Assembly: GCA_021647625.1 (NCBI GenBank)
Contig: JAKIUJ010000024.1
Coordinates: 1 to 32,224 of the forward strand
Length of the DNA stretch: 32,224 nucleotides
From: Desulfobacula sp.
Lineage (GTDB): Bacteria > Desulfobacterota > Desulfobacteria > Desulfobacterales > Desulfobacteraceae
Reading direction: 5' to 3'
This document shows, in pieces, positions 1 through 29,294 of the stretch. The position numbers and the translations under genes are program-made. The notes beneath the pieces are model-generated. The model searched no databases, was not told where the DNA came from, and worked only from the letters and a program-made list of their open reading frames with translations. Position 1 is the first letter of the stretch, and the number at the start of each line of letters is the position of its first letter.

Positions 1-106
1 TATAAATCGGGCCTCATGTACTATAGTACACTCCGGTTTCAGCATTTCTTGCGCCTTGCATATGGGCAACTTTGTGAGCTTTGCTCCTCTACGAGCCGCC
101 CAAACA
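1..106 (+). repeat. Dispersed long-hairpin repeat, copy 1 (left part truncated or degenerate)
   Basis: CTCATGTACTATAGTACACTCCGGTTTCAG...TTGCGCCTTGCATATGGGCAACTTT...GCCCAAACA matches copies at 18311-18448 (opposite strand) and 29168-29294; contains an extra ~24 nt near the right end. Confidence 0.75.
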
Positions 107-281
107 CGGGTTTTCGGTCAGCCACTAATTATCTTGGGCTTGCAACCAACTGTATCAACCTCTCTTTATTGCCCGTAATATTTTAATCCCGCCTCCTCTT
201 GGAATGCCCCATTCTAAAGGAGGTCTGCATGCCTGATAAAGACTTCCCTACACCAAAAAATCATATCCGCCGCCTTTTTCT

Positions 282-1300: not shown

Positions 1301-4300
1301 ATGCAAATCTTAGACAACATAAACACTCTTTGGGGCAATGATTTAAAACAAACCCTGAAGCCAGGTACAAAATTGAAAATTGCAGCCTCTTGCTTTTCTA
1401 TATATGCATTTGAAGCTTTAAAAAAAGAACTAGAAAAAGTTGATTCCCTTGAATTTATCTTTACAGCTCCGGCATTTATTCCAAATGAGGTGACTGACAA
1501 GGTTTCAAAAGAACGGCGTGAATTTCATATACCCAAACAAGAGCGGGAGCGTAGTTTGTATGGAAGTGAGTTTGAGATACAGCTAAAGAACAAACTCACA
1601 CAAAGAGCTATAGCCAGAGAATGCGCCGACTGGATTAAACGTAAGGCCCGGTTTAAATCAAACGCCACAAAAGCTCCAATGCAGCAATTTGCATGCTTAA
1701 ATAAGAAGGATGACGCTACAGCATATATGCCTCTTCAAGGATTTACAGCAGTCGATCTTGGCTACCAGCAAGGAGACGCTGTTTCTAATCTTATAACGAA
1801 ATTTGAAGATACCCCATCAACCCAAACCTGGCTAAATCTTTTTAATCAAATTTGGGATGATGATACCAAGTTAAAAGATGTCACCGATGCCATCTGTTCA
1901 CATATTGAATCTGTGTATCAGGAAAATTCCCCTGAAAAAATCTATTTTCTTATGCTTTACAATATCTTCAATGAGTTTCTTGAAGATTTGAATGAAGATG
2001 TTTTGCCGAACGACCTGACTGGATATAAAAACAGCGTTATATGGAATAAGCTGTTTAATTTCCAGAGAGATGCCGCTACCGGCATCATCAATAAACTTGA
2101 AAGCTACAATGGCTGTATATTAGCTGATAGCGTCGGTCTTGGAAAAACGTTCACTGCACTGGCTGTTATCAAATACTACGAGCTCCGCAATCGTTCTGTA
2201 CTGGTATTATGCCCGAAAAAACTTGCCGATAACTGGCTGAATTACAATCGGAACCTCAAGACCAATATTTTTACCAAAGACCGTTTGAACTATGATGTCC
2301 TTTGCCATACGGATTTACAACGCACCAGTGGTGAGTCCTTTGGAACACCTTTGAATAAAATCAACTGGGGTAACTATGATCTCGTTGTTATTGATGAATC
2401 TCATAACTTCAGAAATAACGACACATACAAGGATAAAGAAACCCGATATAAAAAGTTGATGAATTCTGTTATTCGTGATGGGGTTAAAACAAAGGTCCTC
2501 ATGCTTTCAGCTACACCTGTTAATAACCGCTTCAATGACCTCAGAAATCAACTGGCATTAGCCTACGAGGGTGAATCTGAAAATCTTAGTAGCAAACTTA
2601 AAACTGGGAAATCAGTTGAAGAAATATTCCGTCAAGCGCAGACCGTTTTTAATTCATGGTCAAAGCTGCCGCCTGAAGAGCGAACAGCCAGAGCGATACT
2701 GGATGCCCTTGATTTTGATTTTTTTGAGTTGCTTGATAGCGTCACCATTGCCAGATCCAGAAAACATATTGAAACCTTTTACGACACAACAGATATCGGA
2801 AAATTTCCAGTAAGACGAAAACCTCTATCCTTCCGTTGTCAATTAACGGAGCGTCAAGATGTCATGGGCTTCAATGATATCTACACACAGCTATCGCTGC
2901 TAAAATTATCTGTCTATGCACCGGTAAGCTATATTCTCCCAAGCCGCTTGAAAAAATATGAAGAACTTTATGATACAGCTGTTGAGGGCAGCAAAGTAAC
3001 GTTTCGGCAGACTGATCGTGAAAAGAGCCTGCAATCACTCATGACAACCAATCTACTTAAACGCCTGGAAAGTTCAGTTGAATCGTTCAGACTGACTCTA
3101 AGCTCGCTTGAAGAAAAGCACAAAGGGATGCTGAGCAAAATTGAACAGTTTAAGCAATCAGGTACGGATCTCTCTATTCATGATCTTGCAAATTCTCTTG
3201 GTGATCTTGAAGCGGAAGATGATGATTTGATAGGTCTTGATGATTTTATGATCGGAAATAAGATCAAGGTGAGCTTAACTGATATGGACTTACCATCATG
3301 GAAACATGATTTAAATTCAGATCTTGTGATCATTTCATCATTACTTGATGAAATGAAAAAAGTTGGTCCACAAGAGGATTTCAAACTTCAGCATCTGAAA
3401 AAACATATTGAAAAAAAGATCCAGCACCCGATTAACGCCGACAACAAAAAGATCATTATATTCACAGCCTTTGCCGATACAGCCAACTACCTCTATGAAA
3501 ACCTGTCAGGCGAATTACTTTCAATCGGCATACATTCTGGACGCGTTACGGGTAAAGATGCCCCAAAAACAACATTAAAAAAGGGCTATGATTTTCAATC
3601 CATCCTAACCTTGTTTTCACCGATTTCTAAAGAAAAGGCTCTCATCCTTCCAGAAGAACCAGGTGAGATTGATTTACTAATAGGAACCGATTGCATATCG
3701 GAAGGGCAAAATCTTCAGGATTGTGACTACTTGATAAATTATGACATTCACTGGAATCCGGTCCGCATCATTCAAAGGTATGGTCGCGTGGATCGAATTG
3801 GATCAACGAATGAATCCATTCAGCTGGTGAACTACTGGCCTGATATCTCTCTGGATGAATACATCAATCTGAAAGAACGTGTGGAAAACCGGATGATTAT
3901 TGCCGATGTCACTGCCACGGGAGATGATAACGTATTATCAGCACGGGCGAATGATGTAAGCTACCGTAAAGAGCAACTGAGACGTCTCCAGGATGAGGTG
4001 ATTGAGCTTGAAGATCTAAAAACCGGCGTTAACATTACCGATCTTGGCCTAAATGATTTCAGAATGGATCTTCTTAACTATATTAAAAACAATGGTGATT
4101 TAGGCCATCTACCAAACGGTCTGCACGCCATTGTTTCAGCAAATGAAACCATTGGATTGAAGCCGGGGGTAATCTTTACACTCAGAAACAGAAACTCGGG
4201 CGTTAATATCAATCAACACAATCGGCTGCACCCATATTACCTGATATATATCGGTAATGACGGAGAAGTTATCACCGACCACACACAGGTAAAGCCTCTT

Positions 4301-4570
4301 CTGGATTTGGTAAGAGCCGGCTGTAAGGGACAAGAACTACCCATTGAACTGCTATGCAAGGCGTTTAATGCTGAAACTAAAGATGGAAGAAACATGAAGA
4401 AATATTCTGATCTTCTCGGGCAAGCTATTCACTCAATGATCGAAATAAAAGAAGACAAGGATATAGACAGCTTGTTCTCAGGTACGAACACAACTGCCTT
4501 GGTCGATACAATATACGGTCTGGATGATTTTGAATTGATTTCCTTCCTCGTTGTTAAGGAGAACGAATGA
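1301..4570 (+). CDS. SNF2-type DEAD/DEAH helicase with PLD-like N-terminal region
   Basis: 1089 aa; Walker A ADSVGLGKTFTA, motif II DESHNFRN, motif III SATPVNN, motif V-VI GTDCISEGQNLQDCDYLINYDIHWNPVRIIQRYGRVDRIGS. Confidence 0.9.
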   Translation: MQILDNINTLWGNDLKQTLKPGTKLKIAASCFSIYAFEALKKELEKVDSLEFIFTAPAFIPNEVTDKVSKERREFHIPKQERERSLYGSEFEIQLKNKLTQRAIARECADWIKRKARFKSNATKAPMQQFACLNKKDDATAYMPLQGFTAVDLGYQQGDAVSNLITKFEDTPSTQTWLNLFNQIWDDDTKLKDVTDAICSHIESVYQENSPEKIYFLMLYNIFNEFLEDLNEDVLPNDLTGYKNSVIWNKLFNFQRDAATGIINKLESYNGCILADSVGLGKTFTALAVIKYYELRNRSVLVLCPKKLADNWLNYNRNLKTNIFTKDRLNYDVLCHTDLQRTSGESFGTPLNKINWGNYDLVVIDESHNFRNNDTYKDKETRYKKLMNSVIRDGVKTKVLMLSATPVNNRFNDLRNQLALAYEGESENLSSKLKTGKSVEEIFRQAQTVFNSWSKLPPEERTARAILDALDFDFFELLDSVTIARSRKHIETFYDTTDIGKFPVRRKPLSFRCQLTERQDVMGFNDIYTQLSLLKLSVYAPVSYILPSRLKKYEELYDTAVEGSKVTFRQTDREKSLQSLMTTNLLKRLESSVESFRLTLSSLEEKHKGMLSKIEQFKQSGTDLSIHDLANSLGDLEAEDDDLIGLDDFMIGNKIKVSLTDMDLPSWKHDLNSDLVIISSLLDEMKKVGPQEDFKLQHLKKHIEKKIQHPINADNKKIIIFTAFADTANYLYENLSGELLSIGIHSGRVTGKDAPKTTLKKGYDFQSILTLFSPISKEKALILPEEPGEIDLLIGTDCISEGQNLQDCDYLINYDIHWNPVRIIQRYGRVDRIGSTNESIQLVNYWPDISLDEYINLKERVENRMIIADVTATGDDNVLSARANDVSYRKEQLRRLQDEVIELEDLKTGVNITDLGLNDFRMDLLNYIKNNGDLGHLPNGLHAIVSANETIGLKPGVIFTLRNRNSGVNINQHNRLHPYYLIYIGNDGEVITDHTQVKPLLDLVRAGCKGQELPIELLCKAFNAETKDGRNMKKYSDLLGQAIHSMIEIKEDKDIDSLFSGTNTTALVDTIYGLDDFELISFLVVKENE

Positions 4571-5247
4571 AGACCCTTTACAACTTTCCCAAGGCGGCGG
4601 CTTTTGGCCGGAGGCTTGCCAAAAGCAAGATTTACGAACACACTTCGCCAAGTACCAAAGTAAAAAAATTATTTATTCAGCAGGTCGAAAAGATAACCTG
4701 GGCCTATAAACTATCTCCGGCAACTATCAACCTTCCCGCCAGTGATGGAGTGCAGGAAATCCAGGTTTTTACCATAGACTTAAGAGTCGGAGAACTGTCA
4801 CCGGATGTCTTGCAAACCATAGACAAAGCAATCCCCTCACCCATTCTTTTTGAATTGAAGTATGGCAGCAAAACCAAGTATGCTGCCAGCTATAAGAGAC
4901 CGAGTGAGGCAGATAAGAACAAATGGGTTGTCAGCAGTTATTTTCAATCAGACTGGCTGAAAGAGAACACACTAACATCAAAGCTTCCGGTAGTACTAAA
5001 CATGGGAGCACTCTATCAATCCTTTTTAACAAGCTTAAGTCCCCTCCCCTTTAAGAAAGGGGAAAATCTGGATGGTTTAGTATCAAGAATTGACCTTTTA
5101 CAGTTTAAAGAGCGTGAAGCTGGAAAACTGGAGAACCGTATAAACAAAGAAAAACAATTCAACCGGCGCGTGGGGCTGAACAGTACATTGAATAAACTGA
5201 AACAGGAAATTAAGAATTTAAAACGCCGAAAACTGCAGGCGGAATGA
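4567..5247 (+). CDS. DUF4391-like protein
   Basis: 226 aa; ATGA overlap with the upstream helicase stop; position between helicase and Mod and the sequence features (LFELKYGSKTKYAASYKRP, C-terminal coiled coil) fit DUF4391 proteins from memory. Confidence 0.65.
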   Translation: MKTLYNFPKAAAFGRRLAKSKIYEHTSPSTKVKKLFIQQVEKITWAYKLSPATINLPASDGVQEIQVFTIDLRVGELSPDVLQTIDKAIPSPILFELKYGSKTKYAASYKRPSEADKNKWVVSSYFQSDWLKENTLTSKLPVVLNMGALYQSFLTSLSPLPFKKGENLDGLVSRIDLLQFKEREAGKLENRINKEKQFNRRVGLNSTLNKLKQEIKNLKRRKLQAE

Positions 5248-5263
5248 TACAGGAGTCTTACAA

Positions 5264-7144
5264 ATGGAAAAATTAAAAATGCACAGCCCTAATTTTGCTG
5301 AAGAAAATATCGAGAAGCTTTCAGCACTGTTTCCGGGTTGCATTACAGAATCAACCTATGAAGATGGAACCCTGAAGAAATCTATTGATTTTGATCTGCT
5401 CAGACAGGAACTATCAACCACTATCGTAGAAGGTCCACAGGAGCGCTATCACCTGAATTGGCCAGGCAAGCGAGAAGCTTTACTCACTGCCAATGCACCC
5501 ATCGCTAAGACACTTCGCCCCTGCCGTGAAGAGAGCGAATATTTTGACACAACAGAAAACCTCTTTATTGAGGGTGACAACCTTGATGCACTAAAGCTCC
5601 TGCAGGAAACTTACCTCGGTAAGGTCAAAACGATCTATATCGATCCGCCCTACAACACTGGCAAGGACTTCATCTATTCCGACAATTTTGCTGAATCTAC
5701 TGAGGAATACCTGCTTGATTCAGGCCAAAAAGATGAAGAAGGAAACCGCCTTGTAGCCAACACAGATTCCAATGGCCGCTTCCACTCCGACTGGCTGAGT
5801 ATGATGTATTCACGACTGAAATTAGCCAGAAATCTACTCAAGGATGATGGGGTAATTTTTATCAGTATTGATGATGGAGAACAGGCTAATCTTAAAAGGA
5901 TGTGTGATGAGGTTTTTGGGGAAGAGAATTTTGTCGCTACAATATGCTGGCAAAAACGTTATTCACGTGAAAATCGGGGGTCTATTGGAGATGCACATGA
6001 GTACGTTATAGTATTTGCAAAACAATCCTCTCTGTTTGCAAATCAGTCAGGTAGAATCCCGTTAACAGAACAACAGGCTAAAATTTACAGAAATCCCAAT
6101 AATGATCCTAAAGGTCGATGGCGCGGTATTCCAATGACAGCACAAGGCTATAGGCCTAATCAAATGTATGAAGTTGTTACCCCAACAGGAAATGTTATTA
6201 CGCCGCCTGAAGGCCGTTGTTGGAGTACGATAGAGTCTGAATTTAAAAAATTGAAGGAAGCAGGCAGAATATATTTTGGTAAAGCTAATGATTCTCAGCC
6301 TCAAGTTATTAGGTATCTTTCTGAAGTAAAAGGATTAGTGCCATGGACATGGCTTCCACATGAAGAAGGAGGCCATACTGATGAGTCAAAAAAAGAAATG
6401 TACAGCTTTTTTGGAAAGGGGTTTGCCTTTGACACTCCTAAACCAACTAGATTACTTGAACGACTTATTACAATAGGGTCAAAAGAAAAAGATGGTATCA
6501 TCCTTGATTTCTTTGCGGGATCAGCCACTACAGCCCATGCGGTCATGCGGCTGAACGCTGCCGATGGAGGCAAACGCAAGTTTATAATGGTACAGCTTCC
6601 AGAGACCTGCGATGAGAAATCTGGCGCATATGAAGAAGGATACACAACTATTGCCGAAATCAGCAAGGAGCGTATCCGTCGGGCTGGTAAAAAAATTAAA
6701 GAAGAAAACGCATTGACAGCACCCGACTTGGATACAGGTTTCCGCGTTCTCAAGGTGGACTCCGGTAATATGGAGAACGTCTACTACGCACCCGATTCTG
6801 TTGAGCAAGACCTGCTGACTCTCCAGACCGATAACATCAAAGACGACCGAACTTCAGAAGATTTGCTATTCCAAGTCTTGCTGGACTGGGGTGTAGATCT
6901 AACCCTGCCAATAACCAAAGAAACCATCAAAGATCGTGAAGTTTTCTTTGTAGATGGCAATGCGTTGGCAGCTTGCTTTGCAAAGAATGGCCAAATTACT
7001 GAGAATTTCTGCAAAGAGCTTGCCAAACACCAGCCGTTGCGGGTGGTTTTCCGAGATTCCGGGTTCAAAGATGACAGCATAAAAATCAATGTAGAGCAGA
7101 TATTCAAGCTTATGAGCCCGCACACGGATGTAAAAACAATTTAA
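5264..7144 (+). CDS. mod: Type III restriction-modification methyltransferase (Mod), beta-class DNA methyltransferase
   Basis: Motif IV IYIDPPYNTGKDF precedes motif I ILDFFAGSATTAHAV, with a target-recognition region between; RBS AGGAG upstream. Confidence 0.92.
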   Translation: MEKLKMHSPNFAEENIEKLSALFPGCITESTYEDGTLKKSIDFDLLRQELSTTIVEGPQERYHLNWPGKREALLTANAPIAKTLRPCREESEYFDTTENLFIEGDNLDALKLLQETYLGKVKTIYIDPPYNTGKDFIYSDNFAESTEEYLLDSGQKDEEGNRLVANTDSNGRFHSDWLSMMYSRLKLARNLLKDDGVIFISIDDGEQANLKRMCDEVFGEENFVATICWQKRYSRENRGSIGDAHEYVIVFAKQSSLFANQSGRIPLTEQQAKIYRNPNNDPKGRWRGIPMTAQGYRPNQMYEVVTPTGNVITPPEGRCWSTIESEFKKLKEAGRIYFGKANDSQPQVIRYLSEVKGLVPWTWLPHEEGGHTDESKKEMYSFFGKGFAFDTPKPTRLLERLITIGSKEKDGIILDFFAGSATTAHAVMRLNAADGGKRKFIMVQLPETCDEKSGAYEEGYTTIAEISKERIRRAGKKIKEENALTAPDLDTGFRVLKVDSGNMENVYYAPDSVEQDLLTLQTDNIKDDRTSEDLLFQVLLDWGVDLTLPITKETIKDREVFFVDGNALAACFAKNGQITENFCKELAKHQPLRVVFRDSGFKDDSIKINVEQIFKLMSPHTDVKTI

Positions 7145-7156
7145 AGGAGGCCTATA

Positions 7157-10100
7157 GTGAAACTCAAGTTTAAGAAACAGGCCTACCAGACACGTGCCGT
7201 TGAGGCGGTGGTGGATTGTTTTAAAGGCCAACCAAATACAGCAGGAATCAGCTATCGAATTGACCCAGGTTTGGATAAGGCCAATTTACAAGGTTATAGG
7301 CAACAAAGTCTTATTGAAGAGTCCGGTTTTAAAAATGGGGATATTGTTTTACCCGAGGAACAGATCCTTGAAAATATTCAAGGGGTTCAGCGTATTCAAA
7401 ATTTACCGCAAAGTTTATCACTGAACGAATTTAAAACGATCAAAAAAAATACTTTTGTGTCAGATAAAAACTACACGAAAAAAGCTTTGGCAATTGCGCC
7501 ATTTCACTTTGATGTGGAAATGGAAACCGGAACTGGAAAGACATACTGCTACATCAAAACAATGTTTGAGATGAACAAACGGTTTGGCTGGACCAAGTTC
7601 ATAGTTGTGGTTCCAAGCATTGCTATTCGTGAAGGTATATACAAATCCCTTGAAATCACGGCAGAGCATTTTCAGGAATCTTACAACAAAAAAGCAAAAT
7701 TTTTCATCTACAACTCAAAACAGCTTCATAACCTCGAAAGCTTTTCTTCAGATGCCGGAATCAATGTCATGGTTATTAATGTTCAGGCATTCAATGCCCG
7801 AGGTAAGGACAACCGCCGCATCTATGAAGAACTCGATGATTTTCAGTCCCGCCGTCCCATCGATGTAATTAAGGCCAATCGACCGATACTAATTTTGGAT
7901 GAACCTCAAAAAATGGAAGGTGCAAAAACATTAGACTCCCTCAAGGAGTTTAATCCTCTGTTTATTCTGCGCTATTCAGCTACACATAAAACCCAGCACA
8001 ATAAGGTTCACAGGCTGGATGCATTAGATGCTTATAGCCAAAAACTTGTAAAAAAAATTGCAGTACGGGGTATCTCCGTAAAGGGTCTTTCAGGGACAAA
8101 CGCATATCTCTATCTTGAATCAGTCGAAGTCTCCAAACAGACTCCTGTTGCCAGAATTGAAATTGAAATAAAACAGAACAATGGTATTAAGCGAATAATC
8201 CGGAAACTAAAAAAAGGTGACAATCTTTACGACCTTTCAGGTGAACTTGATCAATACAAGGGATTTGTCATTACTGACATCAGTGCCATTACGGATACTG
8301 TTGAATTTACAAACGGCCATCAACTACAGGCCGGAGAAGCAACCGGCGATGTTAATGAGGCCGCTCTTAGAAGAATTCAGATAAGAGAGGCTATCAAGGC
8401 TCATTTTGAAAAGGAACAAGTCCTTTATCATCAGGGCATCAAAGTCCTGACACTCTTCTTTATCGATAAAGTCGCCAAATACCGTGTTTACAGCGATGCC
8501 GGAGAAGATGAAGGCGGTGAATATGCCAAAGTATTTGAGGAGGAATATACAGAAGCTTTGAAAGAGCTCAAACAAGACATGTTCCTGCCTGAAGATTACC
8601 AAAAGCATCTGGACAGCATTCCTGTTGACCGTACGCATAATGGCTACTTTTCCATCGATAAGAAGGGAAAAATGGTTGATGCAATCAAGACCACAAAAAG
8701 TGAACGAGAAGAAAGCACCGATCAAAGTGCCTATGACTTAATTTTGAAAGACAAAGAACGTCTACTCTCATTTGAGGAACCAATCCGGTTTATTTTCTCC
8801 CATTCTGCTCTCCGTGAAGGATGGGACAACCCGAATGTTTTTGTTATTTGTACCTTAAAGCACAGTGACAATACTATCTCCCGCAGGCAAGAGGTCGGTC
8901 GAGGGCTTCGTATATCGGTCAATCAGTTGGGTGAACGCCAAGATGAACCAGCCACAGTTCATCAAACAAACGTTTTAACGGTTGTTGCCAGCGAAAGCTA
9001 TAAGGACTTCGTCACGGCTTTGCAGAAAGACATCAGTGAGTCGCTCTCAGAACGGCCACGGGTGGCCGATGTAAAATATTTTACTGGAAAAGTAATGCAG
9101 ACTTCTTCCGGTACGGTTGAAGTGACACAGGACATGGCAGCGGGCATCGAGTTTTATCTAATTCAGAACGGATATGTTGATCGCAAGAAAAACATTGCCC
9201 AGAAATATCATGATGCAGTGAAGAATGAAGAAATAGCTGATTTGCCAGAGGATTTGCAGCCATACAAAGAGCAAGTTTTTCAATTAATAGAAAGCGTTTA
9301 CAGCGATGAAAAACTTCCTCAAATTGAAAATGATCGCAGCGCTAAGATGAATCCGTTAAATGCCAACTTTGAAAAAAAGGAATTTAAGGAGCTTTGGAAT
9401 AGGATTAATCGCAAAGCAGCCTATAGCGTACATTTTGACAGCGCTGAACTTGTTAAAAAATCCATCCAGACTCTGAACAAAGAATTGCGGGTTTCTCCCC
9501 TTAAATACACAATTCAGTCGGGTGAGCAAGCTGATGGAATAAATTATGACCAGATGAAATCGGGTGACAGCTTCAAAGTAAAGAAAACCTCTACCGAATA
9601 TGATGCTCACTCGATCCATTCAGCGGTAAAATACGACTTAATTGCTAAAGTTGCTGAGAATGTGCAATTGACAAGAAAAACCGTCACCGAAATTTTATCG
9701 GGTATTGAAAAGTCAGTATTTGCTCAGTTTAAAACCAACCCGGAAAATTTCATTTCCGAAGCTACACGGCTCATTCAGGAACAAAAAGCGACTGTTATTA
9801 TTGAACACCTGAGTTATGATGCTGTTACCGAGACGCATGGTATCGATATTTTTACCGAAAGCCAAAGCAAACAGGATTTCAGCAAAGCCGGTGAGTCACT
9901 CAAACGCCATATTTATGATTATGTTATAACTGACTCGAAAACGGAACGAACCTTTGTCCAGGAGCTTGATACCAGCTCTGAAGTGGTAGTTTATGCAAAG
10001 CTCCCCAGAGGTTTCTCAATCCCCACACCAGTTGGCAACTACAATCCAGACTGGGCAATCTCTTTCAAGGAAGGTTCAGTAAAGCACGTATACTTTGTCG

Positions 10101-10282
10101 CTGAAACTAAAGGTTCCATGTCCACCATGGAGCTCCGGGAGATTGAAAAGACAAAAATAGAATGCGCCCGTAAATTTTTCAATGAAATCAACCGCAAGAT
10201 TAACCCAGACAATGTGAAATACGACGTAGTTAACAGTTTCAGTAAATTGATGGATATCGTTGGAGCAGGAGCTACAGCCTAA
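7157..10282 (+). CDS. res: Type III restriction enzyme Res subunit (helicase-nuclease)
   Basis: GTG start with RBS AAAGGAGG; Walker [11 protein letters not shown], motif [27 protein letters not shown] and [12 protein letters not shown]-terminal PD-(D/E)xK signature [25 protein letters not shown]. Confidence 0.92.
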
Positions 10283-18072: not shown

Positions 18073-18310
18073 AGATCACAAAAGGAATCATTTAACATCA
18101 TAACCACTTGAAATATCAACAAAACATCTATATACAAAATATCAAACTATATTTTCCTAATTTACATATTTGTAATTACGAACTCACAAATTTGTAAGTT
18201 ATGTCTTTTGGTAATAAATTCCAAGGAGATTAATTACAAAAATGGAATTCTATCGAATTGAGGTATAAATGCGGGTATTCTCATTTACTACCTGACTGAA
18301 AGGCTCCGTA

Positions 18311-18448
18311 TTTGGACGAAAAGTTGCCCATATGCAAGGCGCAAGAAATCCTGAAACCGGAGTGTACTGCTGTACATGAGGATTTCAGGATTTTGCAGCA
18401 ACGAAGCAGATGGGCGCTGCCGACGGGTGGGTTTTCGCTCAAACACTA
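18311..18448 (-). repeat. Dispersed long-hairpin repeat, copy 2
   Basis: Minus strand TAGTGTTTGAGCGAAAACCCACCCGTC...AATCCTGAAATCCTCATGTACAGCAGTACACTCCGGTTTCAGGATTTCTTGCGCCTTGCATATGGGCAACTTTTCGTCCAAA. Confidence 0.9.
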
Positions 18449-19528
18449 TTTAAAAAGAATCCGGGAGATGGTCTTACCTGCGGCATATCCCCTGGCAAAT
18501 CGCCAGTGAAAAAATGACGAGGATACCATTTTTAATGAAAGGTTTGGGAATCTGTAAAACCAGTGGGCACCTAAATTATAAATACTCAAATCCCTTTGCA
18601 TGGTTTTAAGTTTTCTGTGATAGATTATTCCTGCTGATTCAAGGCGGTTTTTAGATGCTTCAAGGATTGCTTTTGCTGCATCCTGACCACTTTTGATCGC
18701 AAAATAAATCCCTTCTCCTAAAAGGCGCTCTGCAAGCCCGGCTGCATCACCAGCAAAAAGAATCCTTTTGTTTTCAAAAGAATACCTCCCGGTACAAATG
18801 GGATACCCCTTTATTGCACGCAATGATTGCGTGCCCATTTGCGTTCCGAAGCGGTGATTTGCATATTCAAAAAGCTGCTGTGTTCTAAGTTTTTTCCGGG
18901 TTTCAATAGAATAAATACCAATATTGACATGATCACCCTTAGGAAATATCCAATGATATCCTTTATGCTTTCCGGAAAAATCGAACTCCATTTTATATTG
19001 TTCCGGATGGTCGACTAAAACATCCGCCTCAAGGGCCCACTGCTGTTGCCACATTCTCTTTTTTATGACCATTCTGCGAACCCGGCTGTTGGCACCATCC
19101 GCTCCGATAAGATAGGATGCTTTAAAGGAACCGATATCCGTTACAATCTGCACACCCGTTGATGTTTCATGAATTTGATGTATTTTTTTTGCAATTTTAA
19201 ACTGTCCGCCCTTTTTGATCACCTCATTTAAAGAAAACGCATCCAGGTCTTCTCTTTTTGTCATGTAACAAAGAATGTTATCGCTTTGGATTAAAAAAGA
19301 TTGTTTATTGGTTTTACGAATTTTGACGGATCTACACACTCTTCTGATAACCGAAGAGATATCATATTGAAACAATTGAATACCCTTGGGAGTAATACCA
19401 CCGGCACATGCTTTTTTTCTGGGAAACGCCACCTTATCTATGATCAGCACACTGGCACCTGCTGTTAAAAGATCAAACGCTGCAGCCGTACCAGCCGGCC
19501 CCGCCCCTATGATGGCAACATCAAACAT
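18446..19528 (-). CDS. FAD-dependent oxidoreductase, geranylgeranyl-reductase-like family
   Basis: N-terminal GxGxxG: VAIIGAGPAGTAAAFDLL; later ILFAGDAAGLAERLLGEGIYFAIKSGQDAA. Confidence 0.88.
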   Translation of the reverse strand: MFDVAIIGAGPAGTAAAFDLLTAGASVLIIDKVAFPRKKACAGGITPKGIQLFQYDISSVIRRVCRSVKIRKTNKQSFLIQSDNILCYMTKREDLDAFSLNEVIKKGGQFKIAKKIHQIHETSTGVQIVTDIGSFKASYLIGADGANSRVRRMVIKKRMWQQQWALEADVLVDHPEQYKMEFDFSGKHKGYHWIFPKGDHVNIGIYSIETRKKLRTQQLFEYANHRFGTQMGTQSLRAIKGYPICTGRYSFENKRILFAGDAAGLAERLLGEGIYFAIKSGQDAAKAILEASKNRLESAGIIYHRKLKTMQRDLSIYNLGAHWFYRFPNLSLKMVSSSFFHWRFARGYAAGKTISRILFK

Positions 19529-21194: not shown

Positions 21195-21244
21195 CCTGTC
21201 TGATTATATTTGTTCGGTCAGTCAATAGTTAGTGGCTGACATTA

Positions 21245-27826: not shown

Positions 27827-29170
27827 ATGCTGATTGAATTTTTACCATTCTGGTTTGCTAACTATCTGGCGGCCTGGTTGTTTTTAGCACTGACCATTGC
27901 TTTGATGATGGGATTCCCCGTCACATTTACCATGATGGGGACATCCTTTCTTTTTGGTTTGATCGGGTTAAACCCCTCTTTTTTTGACCTGCTGCCGCTT
28001 CGCATGTGGGGCATCATGAACAACACCATGCTCATGGCGGTTCCTTTATTTATCTTTATGGGGCTTGCCCTGGAAAGATCCGGGCTTGCCAAAGAACTTT
28101 TGGAAACAATGGAAGAGTTGTTTCGCAATATCAGGGGCGGACTTGCTATCTCTGTTGTTCTCGTGGGCGCATTATTAGGTGCGTCCACCGGCATTGTCGG
28201 AGCAACCGTGGTCACCATGGGACTTATGTCCCTGCCCACCATGCTCAAGCATAACTATTCAAAATCATTTGCTGCAGGAACGGTGGCGGCTTCGGGTACG
28301 CTGGGTCAAATCATACCGCCCAGTATTGTTCTTTTGCTTTTGGGACCGGTCATGGAAGTTCCCGTAGGTGATATGTTCATGGGCGCTGTCATTCCGGGAC
28401 TGATCCTTGTGGTGCTTTATTGCCTGTACATCTATTTTTCCAGCTTTTTTAGCACCAAACATATACCAAGAGCCCAGGATAAGGGTGCTACCTTTGACAA
28501 AGCCTTTATCTTAAAAATATTTAAAGCACTTATCCCGCCGCTATTTCTAATCCTGGCTGTCCTGGGATCTATTTTTGCCGGTATTGCCACCCCCACTGAG
28601 TCCGGTTCCATGGGGGCTGTGGGGGCGATTATTTTAACAGCCTTTAATAAAAAACTTTCTTTCAAGCTGCTCCATGAAGTGGCAAAAGGCACCATAAAGA
28701 TGACCTGCATGGTCTTTATCATCATTATGGGAGCCTCTTGTTTTGCTCTTGTTTTCAGAGGGCTTGGCGGAGATGATTTGCTGCGTGAATTTATAACAAG
28801 CCTCAATTTGACCGGGTGGCAGCTGGTAACCATGGTTATGATCTTTATTTTTATTTTGGGATTTTTCCTGGATTTTATTGAAATCACTTATATTCATATC
28901 CCCATCATTGCCCCCATTGTTGTGGAATATGGATATGATCCTTTATGGTTTGGGATCATGTTTGCCGTTAATCTGCAGACATCATTTATGACACCACCGT
29001 TTGGGCCTTCTTTATTTTATCTTAAAGGCGTTTGTCCGCCCGAAGTAAAAACCACCCATCTGTACCGGGGGATTATCCCATTTGTAATTTTACAGATCAT
29101 AGGATTAATGATTATTGCTGCCTGGCCGAGCCTTGTTACCTGGCTTCCCGGCATTGTTTACGGTAACTAG
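27827..29170 (+). CDS. dctM: TRAP transporter large permease DctM
   Basis: VPLFIFMGLALERSGLAKELLE, GATVVTMGLMSLPTML, GTLGQIIPPSIVLLLLG, TPTESGSMGAVGA, NLQTSFMTPPFGPSLFYLKG. Confidence 0.95.
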   Translation: MLIEFLPFWFANYLAAWLFLALTIALMMGFPVTFTMMGTSFLFGLIGLNPSFFDLLPLRMWGIMNNTMLMAVPLFIFMGLALERSGLAKELLETMEELFRNIRGGLAISVVLVGALLGASTGIVGATVVTMGLMSLPTMLKHNYSKSFAAGTVAASGTLGQIIPPSIVLLLLGPVMEVPVGDMFMGAVIPGLILVVLYCLYIYFSSFFSTKHIPRAQDKGATFDKAFILKIFKALIPPLFLILAVLGSIFAGIATPTESGSMGAVGAIILTAFNKKLSFKLLHEVAKGTIKMTCMVFIIIMGASCFALVFRGLGGDDLLREFITSLNLTGWQLVTMVMIFIFILGFFLDFIEITYIHIPIIAPIVVEYGYDPLWFGIMFAVNLQTSFMTPPFGPSLFYLKGVCPPEVKTTHLYRGIIPFVILQIIGLMIIAAWPSLVTWLPGIVYGN

Positions 29171-29294
29171 TGTTTGAACGAAAACTCACCCATCTGCGGC
29201 GTTGCTGTGGAACTCTGAAATCCTCATGTACCGCAGTACACTCCGGTTTCAGAGTTCCTTGTGTCTTGCATATGGGCAACTTTTCGCCCAAACA
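29168..29294 (+). repeat. Dispersed long-hairpin repeat, copy 3
   Basis: TAGTGTTTGAACGAAAACTCACCCATC...GGAACTCTGAAATCCTCATGTACCGCAGTACACTCCGGTTTCAGAGTTCC...TTGCATATGGGCAACTTTTCGCCCAAACA. Confidence 0.9.

Follow-up and report, generated by a model that had tools for sequence, protein, structure and literature searches.

The repeat described here is most probably a non-autonomous transposon (MITE), which carries the terminal inverted repeat (TIR) GTGNCTGANCGAAAA of an ISNCY-family insertion sequence (IS) from the same genus and is mobilised in trans by it, and the interior of which is an older, separate hairpin under selection for its fold. We class it as a hairpin MITE, the interior of which is conserved and selected.

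The window, i.e. the whole stretch of 32,224 nt that was analysed, harbored three copies of the repeat, far beyond chance: exact matches to CCGGAGTGTACTNNNGTACATGA were found at 14-36 (-), 18357-18379 (+) and 29224-29246 (-), with a chance expectation of 0.01. This bore out the three copies of the original prediction, and the two base-pair swaps that it had noted between copies 2 and 3 were as claimed. Its extents (1-106, 18311-18448 and 29168-29294) were too short, the real element being larger. The apical loop did vary between GTAC and GTAC, as it had stated, and took the form TNNN. Copies 2 and 3 displayed folding z-scores of -3.9 and -7.0 against shuffles (better strand). The features of the three copies were the following.

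18288..18446, + strand: copy 2, whole element (159 bp)
18282..18287, no strand: copy 2, left target-site copy CATTTA, with one mismatch to the right copy
18288..18302, + strand: copy 2, outer left terminal inverted repeat CTACCTGACTGAAAG, degenerate (intact GTGSCTGACCGAAAA in most copies)
18308..18322, + strand: copy 2, inner left arm GTATTTGGACGAAAA, pairing with the right terminal repeat at the hairpin base
18346..18358, + strand: copy 2, stem 1, 5' side AAATCCTGAAACC; eight of 14 stem-1 pairs changed on both sides
18359..18361, + strand: copy 2, conserved internal loop GGA, opposite GA at 18378-18379 (GGA/GA in 55 of 58 copies)
18362..18377, + strand: copy 2, stem 2 and apical loop GTGTAC-TGCT-GTACAT
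18380..18393, + strand: copy 2, stem 1, 3' side GG-A-TTTCAGGATTT, with the invariant bulged A at 18382
18432..18446, + strand: copy 2, right terminal inverted repeat TTTTCGCTCAAACAC
18447..18452, no strand: copy 2, right target-site copy TATTTA; with the last element base, the TAG stop of gene 18446-19528 (-)
1..125, - strand: copy 1, truncated by the contig start, with the GGCTCGTAGAGGAGCAAAGCTCACA module and an alternative GCCCGATTTATA core
126..131, no strand: copy 1, target-site copy TAATTA
29170..29294, - strand: copy 3, outer end degenerate and traceable to ~29313
29164..29169, no strand: copy 3, target-site copy TAACTA, forming the TAG stop of dctM (27827-29170)

The window further displayed, at 21211-21240, two remnants of the terminal repeat that face outward on either side of TAGTTA (CGGTCAGTCAATAGTTAGTGGCTGAC) and are probably the scar of another element with the same type of ends. 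Downstream of copy 1, an operon-like cluster (1301-10282) encodes an SNF2/helicase, a DUF4391 protein, an N6/N4 DNA methylase and a ResIII helicase that contains an endonuclease domain; it has the appearance of a defence locus, of the type III restriction-modification kind or related to it.

Three copies in 32 kb, true of the window, were a small sample of the family. The 4.27 Mb genome contained 100 copies of the exact core GTGTACTNNNGTACATGAG and none of the reversed control, and a first search with copy 2 as query returned 168 candidates. Copies were gathered with a profile from ~1.1 Mb of fetched genome sequence. The elements were ~130-185 bp long and had no coding capacity; they started with the TIR GTGSCTGACCGAAAACYC and ended with TTTTCGTTCAAACAC. 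Listing the flanks of all copies gave TANNTA-GTGSCTGACCGAAAACYC-GTGTTTGGGCGAAAAGTTGCCCATATGC... as the left end, which lies beyond the boundary first proposed, and ...GCAGATGGGTGAGTTTTCGTTCAAACAC-TANNTA as the right end. Optional modules were GGCTCGTAGAGGAGCAAAGCTCACA, GCCCGATTTATAATTTGGC and, in the right arm, GGCGCTGCCGACGG. The flanking 6-mers were identical in 62 out of 133 copies, versus a mean of 9.7 and a maximum of 19 in 2000 shuffles. Each of the six flanking positions agreed in 73-83 % of left/right pairs, so that the duplication comprises six bp: TANNTA is a 6-bp target-site duplication, which reached seven bp in a few copies. Congener G006 displayed an element with TACATA on both sides, and the genome under study has related uninterrupted sequence there. 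Orthologous shared insertions between G018 and this genome were rejected, as the insertions were independent events in one intergenic region. Contigs C268:1, C162, C194, C306 and C312 of genome G000 had ends inside or adjoining copies of the element, meaning that the repeat breaks the assembly; copies of the element thereby explain assembly breaks in these bacteria. Plasmid and phage collections searched with the repeat gave no matches.

In congeners, the same TIR and TANNTA flanks carried other interiors, namely family B (L193 and L197) and family C (L178 and L198), and also occurred as minis, 45-50 bp long and composed of little besides two TIRs (L175, L177 and L189). The family B elements with ISNCY ends (L193 1350-1508 and L197 1500-1670) displayed the same internal motifs with different stems; the apex of this family contains GGAGGAAT, and partial copies were found just before gene starts (L174 and L190). 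In the complete genome G008, the TIR led to a 2.08-kb element with broken frames matching the ISNCY-family transposase model NF033593 (E = 2e-85, one segment). A scan of the genus with PF01609, the match list of which led to this IS, returned 30 fetched loci devoid of the TIRs. Protein searches recovered an intact 494-aa transposase frame between TIRs at 140 and 2040 in G012 (L336) and an intact 504-aa frame between the same TIRs in G001 (L335); an intact ISNCY-family transposase is thus present in the genus. The genome under study itself displayed only a broken relic of the NF033593 transposase (C54, L337). The first 20 bases of the element were identical to those of the G012 IS (20/20), with no other match of note, and the terminal repeats were also common to the IS of G001 and G008.

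The element combines the features of a MITE: TIRs common to an autonomous IS, target duplication, a short length without transposase gene and a high copy number. Shared ends around an ISNCY transposase, together with relics, other interiors and minis, point to trans-mobilisation of a MITE by an ISNCY-family IS, and this appears to be the best explanation of the sequences. The ISNCY transposase would bind the TIRs of the element and cut with a 6-bp stagger at TANNTA, and the element would be moved in trans, either today or until recently. Against this explanation stand the target duplications of the IS copies, which were not identical (TACCTA/TAGTTA and TAGTTA/TAATTA). Moreover, a transposase match was present in only nine out of 56 relatives and in none of the copy-rich genomes G009, G014 and G004, for which reason we infer trans-mobilisation rather than assert it.

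Almost all copies of this genome with enough flank (108 out of 109) were intergenic, i.e. outside long ORFs taken as an approximation of genes, two of the 108 lying at the margin of the fetched sequence. The single exception was located within a frame of 167 aa, which is unlikely to be a gene. The earlier remark that no coding sequence explains the hairpin holds. Its suggestion to map the copies relative to genes revealed clustering at gene 3' ends, often exactly at stop codons: 55 out of 114 flanking gene 3' ends were within 15 bp of the element, versus nine out of 98 gene 5' ends. Copies 2 and 3 were both located exactly at stop codons, where TANNTA and the first G of the element form TAG; the genes concerned encode a FAD-binding oxidoreductase-like protein (18446-19528, -) and DctM (27827-29170, +). 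Tandem genes had the same orientation as the element in 23 cases and the opposite one in 31, hence without bias.

Covariation was assessed in an alignment of 58 intact copies, which came from this genus and two genera neighbouring it, with a 49-pair structure in which 94.2 % of the pairs were standard. Changes on both sides were displayed by 17 of the 49 pairs and in 61 cells, versus 5.7 and 9.3 after shuffling; none of 500 shuffles reached the observed values, and slid structures attained at most eight pairs and 18 cells. A second alignment comprised 75 distinct rows, namely distant copies from the phylum, supplemented with a small number from this genus and neighbouring ones. Here, 44 out of 49 pairs and 924 cells were affected, versus 36 and 307 after shuffling and a maximum of 261 cells in slid structures, in an alignment that was fitted to the model and leans towards it. 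The original prediction of a dispersed hairpin with stems kept by compensatory change, for which it had proposed a covariance model as the test, was thus borne out by significant covariation both within the family and across the phylum. The most constant positions of the hairpin were its unpaired features: the A-G mismatch of columns 24/102 and the bulged A of column 75 were encountered in all 58 copies, the internal loop GGA/GA in 55. With RNA parameters, the strand shown had the better fold of the two in all family copies (58/58) and in 64/66 distant ones (122/124 in total), and with DNA parameters in 57/58 and 61/66, a bias perhaps partly inflated by the strand-specific model with which the distant copies were detected. 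G-U pairs outnumbered A-C in 23 of 28 lineages. Simple palindrome correction would have erased the invariant mismatch, bulge and loop, and the better-folding strand and G-U excess fit selection on one folded strand; together these observations point to selection on one folded single strand rather than palindrome repair. Rfam gave no match above the gathering score in the window and only chance-level matches in six relatives.

The same hairpin was detected with the covariance model, its ends being different, in 63 out of 297 genomes sampled across the phylum, which indicates that the interior is not IS-derived; matches in L209, L218 and L228 looked like false positives and were left out. A simple IS end, which the original prediction had named as the finding to set against it, was recognized only in part: the ends belong to an IS and the hairpin does not, and the repeat as a whole was rejected as a simple IS end with only ~20 terminal bases matching the IS. 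Distant copies displayed the common core ...CAGATGCAAGGCGC ... GCAACGCNGCAGATGGG... and the apical part, and their outer arms were lineage-specific. The exact core pattern was mostly found in Deltaproteobacteria (Geobacteraceae, Desulfuromonadales and Syntrophaceae); single matches in MAGs labelled Rokubacteria, Nitrospiria and Chloroflexi may be due to transfer or misbinning. NF033593 was mostly absent from hairpin-bearing genomes of other families in the phylum and does not explain the spread of the hairpin there.

The surroundings of the hairpin differed among these lineages. In G227 (L274-L283 and L205), belonging to another family, at least seven out of 11 copies were located between two near-identical whole intrinsic terminators (~25-35 bp), as if the terminator were a duplicated target. 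An antiterminator was rejected for these flanks, longer stretches of which displayed the whole terminator duplicated on both sides. Copies from G058/G098 (L254-L265, L212 and L217) and G233 (L266-L270) displayed the same double-left architecture as the element with different ends, in which an outer left repeat and an inner left arm both resemble the right end; those of G058/G098 were flanked by CTAG-like sequence. The interior would be a much older hairpin module, distributed phylum-wide with lineage-specific ends, and its folded single strand (RNA or ssDNA) would be under selection, the fold most likely helping the element to spread or protecting the element or a host transcript. A bolder generalization, which we put forward tentatively and consider doubtful, is that a phylum-wide functional hairpin (RNA or ssDNA) is portable cargo repeatedly given the TIRs of available transposons, with its fold selected for spread or for transcript shielding.

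Other explanations were weighed against this one. The hairpin might be kept for a role in host transcripts, whether as a terminator, an RNase III site or a stabiliser of mRNA at gene 3' ends, as in ERIC, Correia/NEMIS and BIME, mobility only spreading it. The very low RNA folding energy, the closeness of copies to about half of the flanking gene 3' ends (within 15 bp) and the G227 copies, which adjoin duplicated intrinsic terminators, often downstream of genes, are in line with such a role. However, the preference for 3' ends may equally stem from TANNTA-like sites at stops and from the survival of harmless insertions, and the lack of orientation bias relative to genes lends no support to a one-sense role in host mRNA; this explanation is regarded as unlikely, if worth retaining. 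A process acting on the DNA itself, i.e. templated correction within the palindrome by template switching, could also have generated the compensatory changes without selection on the fold. Long imperfect palindromes are known substrates of this process and the swaps leave the arms perfect; mismatches left unrepaired at columns 43/82 in many copies of a single genome are likewise counted in its favour. Yet it should erase mismatches and bulges, and A24-G102, bulged A75 and GGA/GA are invariant, the same non-pairs recurring in the second interior family; nor does a strand-blind process predict the excess of G-U over A-C. We accordingly judge templated correction improbable.

The remaining two alternatives concern the mode of mobility. 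The unrelated ends around one core would also be expected if the hairpin were an independent mobile RNA or ssDNA with its own insertion route, which acquires the TIRs of resident transposons and therefore displays ends and flanks that differ by lineage (TANNTA in this genus, CTAG-like sequence in f30, whole duplicated terminators in G227); the strand-specific fold agrees with this. A dedicated enzyme for such mobility was not found. In this genus, however, the same ends also move minis with TIRs only and interiors unrelated to the hairpin, so that the TIRs suffice, and an independent mobile hairpin has little probability in our view. Mobility of ssDNA in the manner of REP/RAYT or attC, driven by a Y1 transposase or integron integrase, is extremely improbable: the strand-specific hairpin and the presence of three Y1 genes in the genome speak for it, but 6-bp target duplications, TIRs and ends common to a DDE transposase speak against it, and no consistent link between Y1 genes and copies was encountered. 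REP/RAYT and attC were rejected on the target duplications and the DDE partner. The assignment to a REP/ERIC/attC-like class was hence right as to ERIC-like mobile hairpins, which the element resembles, and the REP and attC mechanisms found no support. Mobilisation in trans by an ISNCY transposase, with selection on the folded interior, is retained as the preferred explanation.

Among known systems, ERIC (IRU) is a dispersed, intergenic, MITE-like imperfect palindrome of ~125 bp, the insertions of which duplicate TA only. The element is alike in being a dispersed, intergenic and MITE-like imperfect palindrome and differs by its 6-bp TANNTA duplication and its ISNCY TIR. Correia elements (NEMIS) are small hairpin MITEs, 100-160 bp in length, the ends of which resemble TATAGTGG...; they have a TA duplication and IS630-like ancestry, in contrast to the 6-bp duplication and ISNCY partner found here. 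The TA-dinucleotide duplication of ERIC and Correia was not displayed by the element. Hairpin MITEs of Thiomargarita have been compared with Correia elements (PMC4853749). REPs are 20-40 bp long with GTAG or CGTC ends (PMC3733652). Like REP/BIME elements with RAYT, the family consists of dispersed palindromes at gene ends; it differs by its length of ~130-185 bp, in place of a 20-40-bp palindrome lacking target duplication, by its 6-bp duplications and by the absence of Y1 linkage. The original prediction had suggested looking for a Y1/REP-type transposase or integrase acting on the repeat; none of the three Y1 genes (PF01797) of the genome was linked or adjacent to the family, the nearest copies being ~2-3 kb away at two of them.

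The core of the hairpin was already noticed in 2009, when the genome paper of Geobacter metallireducens listed 24 "predicted short RNA elements" with the central palindrome GRCGTAGCGCTGCTACGCC, multicopy and intergenic, with similar sequences in other Deltaproteobacteria (PMC2700814, Additional file 4): full hairpin cores of L462 and L378 bear this palindrome at their apex. The apex of the window family is GTGTAC-TNNN-GTACAT instead. The consulted part of that paper does not mention covariation, TIRs, target duplications or a transposase for the Geobacter elements (PMC2700814), and the element described here displays ISNCY ends and occurs in another order of the phylum. In the parts of the literature that were consulted, the hairpin module was not linked to ISNCY ends and its covariation was not reported. 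ISNCY-family IS (NCBIfam NF033593) have the terminal 18-20 bp and TANNTA flanks in common with the element; they are 1.9-2.1 kb long, encode a transposase of ~500 aa and lack the hairpin. The comparison assigns an ISNCY partner to a repeat that ranks among the most abundant in these bacteria. MITE interiors are usually taken as leftover or neutral, whereas the present one covaries like a structured RNA throughout the phylum while its ends change; small mobile repeats may therefore carry a selected fold.
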